A stretch of 64,000 nt of DNA from Bacteroidota bacterium (lineage in GTDB: Bacteria > Bacteroidota > Ignavibacteria > Kryptoniales > JAKASW01): positions 1-64,000 of the forward strand of contig JAJZVO010000009.1 of assembly GCA_021845665.1 (NCBI GenBank), in the 5' to 3' direction. A model generated the notes under the pieces. The model was not told the DNA's origin and did not search any database. It saw only the letters and a program-made list of their open reading frames with translations. Of this stretch, positions 4,305 through 8,570 are shown one piece after another; positions within the stretch are counted from its first letter, which is position 1, and each line of letters starts with the position of its first letter. The translations under genes and the position numbers were made by a program.

Positions 4305-6587
4305 TCATTTCGAGAGCGATCCGAACTCGATCTCCTGCTGCATCTCCTTCTTCGCCCTTTTCTTCTTCGGCGGTTCGGTCTTGGTTCTATACCCGAGCGG
4401 TTCCAGCAAAATCTCGATTGACTTCATCGTGATCTCGGTATACTTCTCCACATCGTAACCATCCTCCGGCCTGTAAAAGATAAACGGCTTCGCCTTCAGT
4501 GGATTTTTCTTTCCCGTGTGATCGATGATGATATACTCCGCTGTCTCGCCCGGCTTGAGCGCGACGCCTGCCTCGGCCATCGTCCGCGACACGACGGCCT
4601 GCATGCTGTTGTTCTCGTACTCGTCGGCATCTTTCGATATCGTATGCCTGACAACAAGCTCGAACGGCGGGACGCGCCCGCTCATCAGGATTTCGAGATG
4701 ATACTTCACGGTATCCATGATCTCCGGGATGAGGAGTTTTAATTCCTCGATGCCCGAAGCCTTCGACATCATCTCTATCACTTCCCCCTGGACCTTACGG
4801 GCAAACAGCGGTATATCTCCGCGTCTCACTTCGAGCCCGCGCACCTTGACCTCGCCGTTCGTGTACGTGCCGACGTACCTGTTCGCCGTCGGTATCTCGC
4901 CGTCCATCCTCGACGCCGGAAACAATATCCATTTGTATATTCCTTCGAGCGAAATCGTTACACCGATCTCTTTCTTAATTACATCGCAAAGGAGTTTGTA
5001 ATCTTCTTCGGTCGCGCCTTCCTTCTTCAGCCAGAGGCAGTCGACGATTCCATGAAGCACGGAATATCCGCGCTCCTCGGCAATCCTCTTGGCATGAAGG
5101 AGCGCCTCGCGCGACAAAGCGTTGACCGACTCGTGTGCTTCGATTCTCCCGAAGCGCGCGTTCTTGTAGCCCAGATAGCCGAAGCATGTCACGAGGAGCC
5201 ACTTCAACGCGGTCTGCCGCTTGTGAAACTCGTTCTTCGTCTGCGGGTCGGAGGCGGACTTTTCCCTCTTCTTGTACTCCGCCCTTTTTTTCAATACGGC
5301 TTCGAGCGTCTCGGGCACGATCCCTCTCCTTCGCTCGCATATCGTGTAGCCGAGCTCAGGCACGGCGTGATTGTCGCAGCATCCGCAGTTTATCGTCTCC
5401 GGCGATATGTTGTGCATCGCCATGAGCGACGGGTACATCGACGCGAAGTCGAGCTCCGCTATCTGCTCGTGGTATCCCATCGCCGGAAGAAATATCAACC
5501 CGCCCCTGTCGGCAAGGATAAGCTCCGATGCCGTCTTGAACTTCTCCCACTCCTGCTTCTTCGCCGGAATGAGTATGTCGTGCCGGTAAGCCCACGCGAG
5601 CTGCATGGAGGAGAGTCCGGTTCCGATGCTCGTCCGCGCCTGCTGCTGCACCGGGATGCAGGTGATCCTCGCAAGATCCAGGAGGCCCGAAAGATCGGAC
5701 TGGTCCATGATGAACGAGTTTTCCGCGTCGATGTGCCACCTGCCGGCGAGCTCGAACGCCCCCGCGCGGTGAACTATCTGGCCGTAGCTCCAGTAGCTCA
5801 TTTCCGAAGTCCGGATGTAATCTGCGGAAGCGTCGCGGTTGAACTGGAGCGGGATCCGCGTCTTTCTCGACAGGTCTGCAAGAAGCGGGAAGAGCGTGTA
5901 GTCGCCGTAGCGCGATAATATGACGTCGGGATCGCATCGCAGGATGTGCGCGTTCAGACGAGCGAGCAGTTCTTCTGCCGTATCGACCTCAATCGTGTAC
6001 TCGCGGCCATCGTAACCGGCTTCGAGCGTAATGATGCGCCCGGACTGATATCTCGGTTGTATGTCGGTGCGCGACGGGGCGATGGTCATGACGCTGAGCG
6101 GCGGGGTCGCGTAGTCTATCGCGTCGAAGCTGTCATCTAGCTCGACAGACACGAGCCTGTTGTCGTCGGCAAACGTAAAAGTACCGAATGCCAGCGGGAA
6201 TAGATTTCTTTCGTAGAGGAACATCTGCGCGGGAGTCAGGTCGGAGTTGAAGAAGACATAATAGGGAAATTCGAACTCGAACCGGCGGATGATTTCCCTG
6301 AAGTGAAGCGTGTCGTGGACGGAAATTTCCAGGACAGGTATACGGTTGCCGGAATAGATCTCGATCTTCTCGCTCCATCCTTCGGTGACGGAACAGTGGA
6401 GTTTTCGCGCAAGCATCTCTGCGCGGCCGCGCTCGGCATTCTTTACGTTCATGTAGAACCGAGGCATGAACGGGACGTGGCCGCGGGTCTTCACGCCGTC
6501 GCCGTCGATTATCCAGAGGGTTATTCCTCTGCTGGAGGGATAGATATCAAACAGCCATCCTCGCTTGTGCATTCGCCAATTCTCCAT
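4305..6587 (-). CDS. Family B DNA polymerase, exonuclease motifs lost (mutagenesis cassette)
   Basis: A 760-residue family B DNA polymerase. Motif A is intact (LDFASMYPS, Asp380). Motif B is divergent (KWLLVTCFGYLGYKNARFG, 462-480, with VT in place of NS). Motif C reads HGIVDC (512-517): the second Asp of the usual YGDTDS, the metal ligand, is kept as Asp516, while the first is Ile. The exonuclease region has lost its acids: the FDIE site is VMTI (166-169) and the N-FD site is YGDYT (227-231). Proofreading should be absent; polymerization is plausible but unproven. The basic tail (PPKKKRAKKE) ends in QQEIEFGSL, whose QxxIEF run could be a clamp-binding peptide. It is the last gene of the lexA/RecA-like/small-protein unit, so damage-induced translesion synthesis is the likely role (inference). 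Confidence 0.85.
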   Translation of the reverse strand: MENWRMHKRGWLFDIYPSSRGITLWIIDGDGVKTRGHVPFMPRFYMNVKNAERGRAEMLARKLHCSVTEGWSEKIEIYSGNRIPVLEISVHDTLHFREIIRRFEFEFPYYVFFNSDLTPAQMFLYERNLFPLAFGTFTFADDNRLVSVELDDSFDAIDYATPPLSVMTIAPSRTDIQPRYQSGRIITLEAGYDGREYTIEVDTAEELLARLNAHILRCDPDVILSRYGDYTLFPLLADLSRKTRIPLQFNRDASADYIRTSEMSYWSYGQIVHRAGAFELAGRWHIDAENSFIMDQSDLSGLLDLARITCIPVQQQARTSIGTGLSSMQLAWAYRHDILIPAKKQEWEKFKTASELILADRGGLIFLPAMGYHEQIAELDFASMYPSLMAMHNISPETINCGCCDNHAVPELGYTICERRRGIVPETLEAVLKKRAEYKKREKSASDPQTKNEFHKRQTALKWLLVTCFGYLGYKNARFGRIEAHESVNALSREALLHAKRIAEERGYSVLHGIVDCLWLKKEGATEEDYKLLCDVIKKEIGVTISLEGIYKWILFPASRMDGEIPTANRYVGTYTNGEVKVRGLEVRRGDIPLFARKVQGEVIEMMSKASGIEELKLLIPEIMDTVKYHLEILMSGRVPPFELVVRHTISKDADEYENNSMQAVVSRTMAEAGVALKPGETAEYIIIDHTGKKNPLKAKPFIFYRPEDGYDVEKYTEITMKSIEILLEPLGYRTKTEPPKKKRAKKEMQQEIEFGSLSK

Positions 6588-6623
6588 GGATCTCTCTGTA
6601 GCGTTCTTTCCAAGGGGTTAAAG

Positions 6624-6635
6624 CATTACACAGAG
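6624..6635 (-). promoter_or_regulatory. Shared 12-base motif upstream of polB
   Basis: CTCTGTGTAATG on the minus strand, ending 37 bases before the first base of the polB start codon. The identical 12 bases lie 37 bases before the RecA-like gene (7682-7693), and the next bases also agree (C/T-TTT-A/G-A). It may be a shared promoter element, since TAATG followed by TTT recalls the -7 element of Bacteroidota promoters, or an operator. Similar CTCTGTG strings also occur as dispersed repeats, so the role is uncertain. Confidence 0.4.
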
Positions 6636-6679
6636 TGACACACAAGGCAGCGCATAGATCACAAAGGACAAAGTTTATT

Positions 6680-7012
6680 TCAATGATTAAGCACAACCGG
6701 CTCATCAGAACGATCTATCAGCCAGCATCTTTCCTCGATTTTCGCCAGACGTTTCTCCAATGATTCCAGTTCATCGACACGCTTCTGGAGAGCTGCCGAG
6801 CGTTTCCTTTCCTCGAGAAGCATGGAGATCACGATGTTCTCGAAAGGTAACGGGTTGACGGCATACGCGCACGCGGCGAGATGTATCTTCGGCGCGCGGA
6901 AAAGATCGTCGAGAAGTTCCTGGTCCTCTTTCCTAAGCGCCGCGCGAAATTTGCTCCACCTCGACTCGTGCTCGTGTATGACCATCGTAAATGTAGGTAC
7001 GGTACGTCCCAT
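6680..7012 (-). CDS. Small coiled-coil protein of the polB cassette
   Basis: A 110-residue protein of no family I can name. The N-terminal part (FRAALRKEDQELLDDLFRAPKIHLAA, about 22-48) looks like a compact helical domain. Residues 64-100 (LLEERKRSAALQKRVDELESLEKRLAKIEER) form a strongly predicted coiled coil. It starts three bases after the RecA-like gene ends and is followed after 92 bases by polB, so it belongs to the same unit. A role as adaptor between the RecA-like protein and the polymerase, in the position ImuB or UmuD takes in other mutasomes, is inference only. Confidence 0.7.
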   Translation of the reverse strand: MGRTVPTFTMVIHEHESRWSKFRAALRKEDQELLDDLFRAPKIHLAACAYAVNPLPFENIVISMLLEERKRSAALQKRVDELESLEKRLAKIEERCWLIDRSDEPVVLNH

Positions 7013-7015
7013 AGC

Positions 7016-7645
7016 TCACCTCGCGAGCATTCTCTTTTGCCTGTTCCATACAATCCCTTCGTAAGGACCGCTGCTCACCTCATACACATCGTCCGCCATC
7101 GCTTGCATTCGCTTATAGAAAGGCTGTCGCTGCTTCTGAGCCGGCGTCAGGTTTTCAGACGCCAGCAGGATCGATATCCCATTCTTCTTTATGCTGCTGA
7201 ACTTCGCATTTATACCGGCAAGGCTCTTCTCGGCCTCCCTGACGGATATTTGCTCATCGTAAAAAGTGTGGAGGAGCCCGAGCACGATCAAAACCTTCGT
7301 TTTCGCCTCGGTAAGGAATGGTTCAACGCCTCGGGTCAAAAGCCCGTCCATCTGGAAGGCCGTGAACACCCTCGATAGGTATACCCTGTTCAGTATATCG
7401 AGCGGGTCCCTCCCGTCTATCTGCGCCATCCGCGCGAGGCGATAGGCGTCGAACCTGTTCGCGCCGTCAACGACGGCGATGCTCGGGAGTCTCCGCAGCG
7501 CTTCTTTCATTACGATGAGAGACGTGTAATAAACCAGCGAAGTACCGCAGAGAAGGACGGTCTTCCCCGGCACGACGGCACCGATGTCGTGAGAGAGCTC
7601 CTTAGTGAGGCTCCAGTTGTCGATATTTTGATTTGCGTTCAACAT
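7016..7645 (-). CDS. RecA/RadA-fold protein lacking the Walker A motif
   Basis: A 209-residue protein with the strand order of a RecA core: GKTVLLCGTS (about 27-36), IAVVDGANRFDAYRLAR (55-71), NRVYLSRVFTAFQMDGLL (83-100) and TKVLIVLGLLHTFYD (112-126). The GxxxxGKT loop needed for ATP binding is not present; GKT occurs at the start of the first strand without the preceding loop. It is therefore probably a non-hydrolysing RecA paralog, similar in position to ImuA/SulA-like proteins of mutagenesis cassettes. It starts 182 bases after lexA and runs into the small protein and polB. Possible role: docking the polymerase to RecA filaments. That is inference. Confidence 0.75.
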   Translation of the reverse strand: MLNANQNIDNWSLTKELSHDIGAVVPGKTVLLCGTSLVYYTSLIVMKEALRRLPSIAVVDGANRFDAYRLARMAQIDGRDPLDILNRVYLSRVFTAFQMDGLLTRGVEPFLTEAKTKVLIVLGLLHTFYDEQISVREAEKSLAGINAKFSSIKKNGISILLASENLTPAQKQRQPFYKRMQAMADDVYEVSSGPYEGIVWNRQKRMLAR

Positions 7646-7681
7646 CGATACGCTATTTTTTTACTTCCATCAGATTCAAAA

Positions 7682-7693
7682 CATTACACAGAG
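7682..7693 (-). promoter_or_regulatory. Shared 12-base motif upstream of the RecA-like gene
   Basis: CTCTGTGTAATG on the minus strand, 37 bases before the start codon of the RecA-like gene, exactly the spacing seen upstream of polB at 6624-6635. The conserved distance argues for a promoter or operator rather than chance. However, the neighbouring bases (TTCTCTGTGG) look like a degenerate dispersed repeat. Confidence 0.4.
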
Positions 7694-7827
7694 CGTCAAG
7701 AGAAGTTGTTTTCTCTGTGGAACTCTTTCTTTTCCCCCGCTCATTAAATATGATAATATGATATGCGGGGTACCGCAAAGCGGCATCTGTGGATCTCTAT
7801 GAAATATTCTTTCCATGTGTCTCTACA

Positions 7828-8457
7828 TCATTTCTGTTTCTTTTCTTTCGGCACAGAGTCTTTGCCATAATTTTTTATCACGCTCACGACTTTCCCGATC
7901 ACCTCGAAACTGTCGACCGCAGGATCGACGACGATCGGGTCGTGAAGCGGATTATCCGGCTTCAGGACGATCTTCTTTCCCTGGCGGCCGTACCTTTTCA
8001 CGGTGACGCCCTCCTCGACGCGCGCGACGACGATGTCGTTGTCTTTCACGTCCTGAACTTTTCTGAAAAACACCACCGAGCCGTCGGCGATGCCGGCGTT
8101 TACCATGCTGTCGCCGACGACGTAGATTCCCCTGTCGCCCGATCTCAGTCCGAGCGTGCCGCGCGCGTCGAAATATTCTTTCGGCTCCTCGTCGACAATC
8201 CTCGGCGTGCCGCCCCTCGCCGCGGCGTAGATCGGTATGCGGCTTTCTTTACGCGTCACGCGCAGAACACGCGACCGGCCCGCTTCCCTCCTGATCAGGC
8301 TCTTCTTTTCGAGCATCCTGAGAAGCTTCTGGACGGCACCTATCGTCACGCCGATAGCCGCGCCGATCTCGCGGAAACTCGGCGCGTAGCCGTTTTCCCG
8401 TGTGAATTCCTCTATAAAATCGAGGGCTTTTTTCTGGCGTTCCGTTATTTCCTTCAT
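7828..8457 (-). CDS. lexA: LexA-type SOS repressor with atypical cleavage site
   Basis: A 209-residue repressor. An N-terminal winged helix (EITERQKKALDFIEEF, then SFREIGAAIGVT) is followed by an S24 peptidase domain. The catalytic serine lies in VVGDSMVN (Ser117) and the lysine in VTVKRY (Lys154), so self-cleavage chemistry is intact. The usual Ala-Gly cleavage dipeptide aligns with Gly82-Gly83 in AAARGGTP, which is unusual. A near-perfect palindrome 41-58 bases upstream of the start is a good autoregulatory operator. Being first in a unit with a RecA-like protein and a polymerase, it probably controls the cassette; whether it is the only LexA of the genome cannot be seen. Confidence 0.9.
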   Translation of the reverse strand: MKEITERQKKALDFIEEFTRENGYAPSFREIGAAIGVTIGAVQKLLRMLEKKSLIRREAGRSRVLRVTRKESRIPIYAAARGGTPRIVDEEPKEYFDARGTLGLRSGDRGIYVVGDSMVNAGIADGSVVFFRKVQDVKDNDIVVARVEEGVTVKRYGRQGKKIVLKPDNPLHDPIVVDPAVDSFEVIGKVVSVIKNYGKDSVPKEKKQK

Positions 8458-8497
8458 TCTTCCACTCCACTTTCCCAGTCCGCATGTTTTTACGGAT

Positions 8498-8515
8498 GGT
8501 ATACAAATGTATACC
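8498..8515. promoter_or_regulatory. Candidate LexA operator
   Basis: GGTATACAAATGTATACC, an 18-base palindrome broken only at the central pair, 41 bases upstream of the lexA start. Position and symmetry fit an autoregulatory operator. It differs from the E. coli (CTGT-N8-ACAG) and Bacillus (GAAC-N4-GTTC) boxes. No second copy was found upstream of the other cassette genes. Confidence 0.65.
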
Positions 8516-8570
8516 CGCGCGGCTTAAAAGTCAAGTGGATTGGCTCTCACCGCCAGAAGAGCTCTTCAGA

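Follow-up and report, generated by a model that had tools for sequence, protein, structure and literature searches.

Positions 4,305 to 8,515 of the 64,000-nucleotide stretch analyzed here (the first part of contig JAJZVO010000009.1 of a Bacteroidota bacterium of the class Ignavibacteria; the whole stretch is called the window below) carry four consecutive genes, which we assign to a bacterial PolB2 mutasome operon, lexA-iRadA-PPB2-polB2. The genes lie on the minus strand and encode a LexA repressor, lexA2 (7828-8457, 209 amino acids), a RadA/Rad51-like protein, iRadA (7016-7645, 209 amino acids), a small helical partner resembling arCOG07300, PPB2 (6680-7012, 110 amino acids), and a family B DNA polymerase of the PolB2 group that is predicted to be exonuclease-dead, polB2 (4305-6587, 760 amino acids). 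The open reading frame (ORF) map of the window agrees with the initial annotation, made from the DNA letters, in placing all four in a single orientation with gaps of exactly 182, 3, and 92 bases. The source assembly comprises 4.64 Mb in 135 contigs, with an estimated completeness of 95.6%.

PolB2 matches PF00136 (DNA_pol_B) with an E-value of 2e-34, and its best structure matches are archaeal family B polymerases, at 3e-52 with the single sequence and 2e-69 with a 25-member family profile. Residue counts for PolB2 refer to an alignment of 57 sequences, composed of the window protein and its relatives. Motif A, D380-F-A-S-M-Y-P386 (5430-5450, minus strand), keeps the metal-binding aspartate, and D380, F381, S383, M384, and P386 are invariant, giving the family pattern D-F-x-S-M-Y-P. 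Motif C, H512-G-I-V-D-C517 (5037-5054, minus strand), aligns with the D-T-D of archaeal PolB; the first aspartate of DxD is replaced by isoleucine and the second is kept. Across the family this motif reads H-[AG]-I-[IV]-D-C, with I514 and D516 present in 57/57 sequences. Just ahead of motif A lies the segment A-D360-R361-G-G, whose aspartate, arginine, and both glycines are likewise invariant (57/57); we assign it to the published D(K/R) loop, which is predicted in the main text of PMC11791011 to touch PPB2.

The exonuclease region has decayed. The degenerate ExoII motif, Y227...L232 (5892-5909, minus strand), carries leucine in place of the catalytic aspartate: L232, found in 56 of the 57 sequences, aligns with the ExoII aspartate in the NGDNFD of archaeal PolB, and Y227 aligns with its asparagine. 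Both ExoI positions are acidic in six of the 57 proteins, including that of the window (E149, D151), and near ExoIII the aspartate D287 is kept by every aligned sequence. Mainly because of the ExoII loss, the 3'-5' exonuclease is predicted to be dead. The proofreading-dead PolB of the initial annotation is thereby upheld at the level of sequence, the ExoII substitution being nearly universal and the ExoI carboxylates not conserved. The C-terminal QQEIEF (4323-4340, minus strand) is a possible, weak beta-clamp-binding motif; by a loose pattern, 30 of the 57 homologues end in a clamp-like tail, such as QELPLF, QLDLF, or QIPLF.

A PADLOC label of homing endonuclease for PolB2, resting on a match at the C-terminal end of a 1671-position model, was rejected because that model most likely includes an intein-containing polymerase. 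The genome holds a second family B polymerase (C34:24715-25506, L002; frame of about 779 amino acids), likely of the Pol II type and distinct from PolB2.

Taken alone, the RecA-like protein gives weak matches to RadA/Rad51 (E-values of 0.002-0.2; 0.0045 in the RadA structure search), and a search with a 27-homologue profile reaches RadA structures at 4e-6. With 209 residues, the protein is too short to include the N-terminal domain of RadA. Inspection of the family alignment found no G-K-T in the Walker A region; at Walker B, 51/51 sequences have leucine, phenylalanine, or tyrosine in place of the aspartate. The protein is assigned to iRadA, a RadA/Rad51 relative without ATPase motifs; the RecA fold lacking Walker A that had been noted earlier holds, with Walker B also gone. 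The small protein has no match in Pfam, NCBIfam, or PADLOC. Its N-terminus reads MGRTVPTFT, with M1, G2, R3, T7, and T9 invariant among 21 aligned homologues, and the N-terminal MGRT arm is described as a hallmark of PPB2, a helical protein of about 90 amino acids, in the main text of PMC11791011, so that the protein is identified as PPB2 by this N-terminus. Leaving aside the clamp-binding motif, of which the window has a weak candidate, all the hallmarks of the PolB2 mutasome that can be tested in a sequence are present in the window proteins.

The arrangement recurs in other genomes. Among 54 related loci with at least 1.1 kb upstream, iRadA-PPB2-PolB2 is found in the same order and on the same strand in 50, and a LexA-type gene stands directly before it on that strand in seven. 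Because the iRadA-PPB2-PolB2 order is kept so widely, the grouping is not a product of chance, and the absence of a conserved neighbourhood, one half of what the initial annotation had said would refute it, is excluded. In a genome of the same genus (G078), a broken second PolB2 copy is present (L112, C81), and the intact copy (L060, C69) has no partners recognized nearby.

LexA2 passes the NCBIfam lexA model TIGR00498 with 152 bits against a cut-off of 111, and it comprises the LexA winged helix-turn-helix and Peptidase_S24 domains, with the catalytic serine (GDSM) and lysine (TVKR) kept. Just upstream of the gene lies a promoter-like TTGACT-17-TACATT (8506-8534, minus strand), overlapped by an 18-bp palindrome, GGTATACATTTGTATACC (8498-8515). 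The same palindrome precedes lexA in loci L056, L057, and L059, and TACCCTACATTTGTAGGGTA occupies this place in L061; the operator is thus kept within the genus. The 18-mer has one exact copy in the genome, and the only other occurrences are two sites with three mismatches, about the level of the control pattern, which makes the operator essentially unique there. With one mismatch allowed, the operator core also matches at two other genomic sites; these were rejected, as they have no ATTTG core and are lost with the 18-base pattern. Of the 56 upstream regions scanned, 31 contain a promoter hexamer together with a palindrome; base shuffles, a rough control because they do not keep dinucleotides, give an expectation of 5.5. 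The palindrome is a probable LexA-type operator and putative LexA2 target, and its position in the lexA2 promoter suggests that LexA2 controls the operon.

The system itself is already described in archaea and in other bacteria. In Leptospirillum ferriphilum, LFML04_0990-0993 were reported in 2014 as a predicted operon of polB2, an arCOG07300 homologue, an inactivated radA, and lexA (PMC4104785); these are the same four gene families, lexA included, in a different bacterium, compared by gene families only. Since this arrangement is published and bacterial PolB2 is already a recognized group in a 2026 survey, the four-gene system is not new. A PolB2-iRadA-(PPB2)3 heteropentamer was modelled in 2025, and with the mutasome of that paper's main text (PMC11791011) the window and its relatives share the iRadA-PPB2-PolB2 order, the MGRT arm, the D(K/R) segment, the IxD form of motif C, the decayed exonuclease, the ATPase-dead iRadA, a lexA nearby, and a clamp-like tail in many relatives, whereas the window's own tail is a weak clamp motif.

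Experimental knowledge comes from Sulfolobus islandicus Dpo2, a PolB2 that is damage-inducible, solely responsible for targeted mutagenesis, devoid of exonuclease, and an extender of mispaired ends (PMC7390963, PMC8764526). The Dpo2 operon shares with the window the PolB2-class polymerase, the I-I-D motif, the missing exonuclease, and the iRadA and PPB2 partner genes, but it is archaeal, and archaeal polB2 neighbourhoods are rich in orc1/cdc6-type regulators, not lexA. The statement in the initial annotation that no functional study was known does not stand: there are genetic and biochemical studies of Dpo2, in addition to the operon published in 2014 and the complex modelled in 2025. In architecture, the nearest published counterpart is Escherichia coli Pol V (UmuD'2C-RecA), which is likewise damage-induced and works with a partner from the RecA family and a small subunit that bears an N-terminal arm; it differs in its Y-family polymerase, active RecA, and UmuD' in place of PPB2. 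The equivalence to imuA-imuB-dnaE2 that had been proposed holds in role, both being LexA-linked mutasomes with a RecA-like protein, and fails in parts: that cassette has a C-family polymerase and the ImuB adaptor, whereas the window has a family B polymerase and a RadA/Rad51-type protein. A genome search found one DnaE, and with this single DnaE no DnaE2 cassette is seen.

The gene identities, the hallmark residues, the conserved order, and the operator sequence are read from the window and its relatives, and together with the family literature they support the SOS-linked mutasome that had been suggested; we put the probability of a PolB2 mutasome operon under its own LexA at roughly 87%. Polymerase and extender activity, damage-induced mutagenesis, and the architecture of the complex would carry over from archaeal experiments and models, and because the residue hallmarks are kept, the window proteins are expected to work as the archaeal PolB2 complex does. 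SOS induction and a mutagenic function in this organism are likewise inferred. In undamaged cells, LexA2 would sit on the palindrome at 8498-8515 and block its own promoter. DNA damage would give rise to RecA filaments, the genome having one RecA able to serve as the trigger of LexA cleavage; LexA2 would then cleave itself, and lexA2, iRadA, PPB2, and polB2 would be expressed. PolB2 would assemble with iRadA, a RadA relative no longer using ATP, and with a PPB2 trimer, the MGRT arm reaching into the PolB2-iRadA cleft. The complex would travel to stalled forks, possibly via the beta clamp, and the non-proofreading PolB2 would extend distorted primer ends past lesions, providing tolerance at the cost of mutations.

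Several points weigh against this account. At the cleavage site of LexA2 the aligned dipeptide is Gly-Gly where Ala-Gly is usual, likewise in three close relatives, and for this reason autocleavage is stated as predicted only. Ala-Gly is typical of LexA without being strictly defining, Gly-Gly occurs in the XRE-S24 proteins described below as well, and LexA2 function may be intact despite it. The 182- and 92-base gaps could house separate promoters, so that transcription as a single operon is a prediction only. In four of the 54 related loci, polB2 stands without recognizable partners. AlphaFold2 models of PolB2 and iRadA reach a mean predicted local distance difference test (pLDDT) score of 41-42, too poor for folds or contacts, most likely because the alignments held just six (PolB2) and four (iRadA) close sequences. 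Dpo2 is accurate on undamaged DNA (PMC7390963, PMC8764526), and the term error-prone is accordingly limited to lesion bypass.

The genome encodes three LexA homologues, LexA2 and two others, and this number, with the unusual Gly-Gly, would suit a translesion operon that is real but governed by LexA1 or another regulator and not by the adjacent LexA2. The palindrome of lexA1, TTTAGTAGAnnnnnnTCTACTAAA, is quite unlike that of lexA2 and occurs once in the genome, at its own promoter, whereas the palindrome at 8498-8515 lies within the lexA2 promoter and occupies the equivalent position in relatives that have a LexA next to the operon; control from outside the operon is on this evidence improbable. 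LexA1 (C23:125209-126514; L037, L115) precedes a DinB-like protein, the only Y-family polymerase found, and with LexA1-DinB the genome holds another LexA-polymerase pair, separate from the one in the operon. In the third homologue (C108:71489-72103, L039), the position of the catalytic serine reads V-S-D-D-A-M; with this serine absent it probably undergoes no self-cleavage, and it may be a repressor derived from LexA that responds to a different trigger.

PolB2 could also be catalytically dead and, with iRadA, regulate replication or mark stalled forks, the role first put forward once the degeneracy of its active site had been noticed. Isoleucine in place of the first aspartate of motif C in all 57 sequences would fit such a role, and PMC4104785 argued that PolB2 is inactivated. 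The motif A aspartate and the second motif C aspartate are nevertheless invariant, and S. islandicus Dpo2, whose motif C is likewise I-x-D, shows robust activity as a polymerase, which leaves a dead polymerase very improbable. Least credible of all is a polymerase belonging to a mobile element or virus and serving its replication: its distribution is patchy, with PolB2 in about 63 of 294 genomes of the class, around one-fifth (our own count, which excludes nine genomes with weak Pol II-like matches), and confined to this class in a phylum sample of 395 genomes, and the literature infers transfer from archaea, but iRadA-PPB2-PolB2 is a stable unit in many genera of the class, and the direct flanking genes are ordinary long ORFs, with no systematic search of the window for integrase or phage genes having been made.

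In sister lineages, the mutasome operon appears to be under a different repressor. In 21 loci from other genera, ACGACAnnnnTGTCGT or a near variant lies upstream of PPB2-PolB2, as a rule before iRadA, and it is commonly preceded by TTGACAA. At some of these loci a divergent gene encodes a protein with an XRE-like N-terminus, a label taken from reading the sequence and not from a family search, and a C-terminus similar to the LexA S24 domain. Queried against 19 genomes of other families, nearly all with the operator, this XRE-S24 protein gave exactly one match in each, at 1e-66 or better; the same query found no match in the genome of the window. With up to two mismatches allowed in a strand-aware scan, ACGACAnnnnTGTCGT lies upstream of the XRE-S24 gene in 12 of the 19 genomes, against 0.18 expected. 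The element is common to PolB2 operons (L063-L113, upstream of iRadA) and to XRE-S24 genes (L119-L137) across many genera.

Because ACGACAnnnnTGTCGT is shared by the operon and the repressor gene, we infer that an XRE-S24 repressor, not LexA, controls the PolB2 operon in those lineages. The fresh detail is this switch, which appears to differ between related lineages. We hold it slightly better than an even chance that the damage switch of the mutasome has changed between them, from a dedicated LexA2 with GGTATACATTTGTATACC that regulates essentially nothing else, as in this genus, to an unrelated XRE-S24 repressor with ACGACAnnnnTGTCGT, as in sister families, or the reverse. If true, the mutagenesis cassette would have a private SOS circuit, distinct from the cell's LexA1-DinB circuit. 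Neither the repressor exchange nor the operators were found in the main text of PMC11791011 or in a literature search, supplements lying outside both; control of the operon may be the new part, and priority is not claimed. This bacterial locus is well preserved, its promoter and operator are readable, and it points to an operon in which the polymerase complex stays while the repressor is exchanged. On these grounds, SOS induction and mutagenicity of a bacterial PolB2 are directly testable.

Minor features of the window were also recorded. The repeat CTCTGTGTAATG is present in two intergenic gaps, with just two copies window-wide. By eye, positions 258-890 hold a PIN-domain-like protein (MYLLDTNIWLERLL) that has a small partner upstream, the two resembling a toxin-antitoxin pair of the VapBC type, and positions 911-1114 contain a short ORF resembling an RHS-repeat core fragment (GLDYFGARYYD), probably a remnant.

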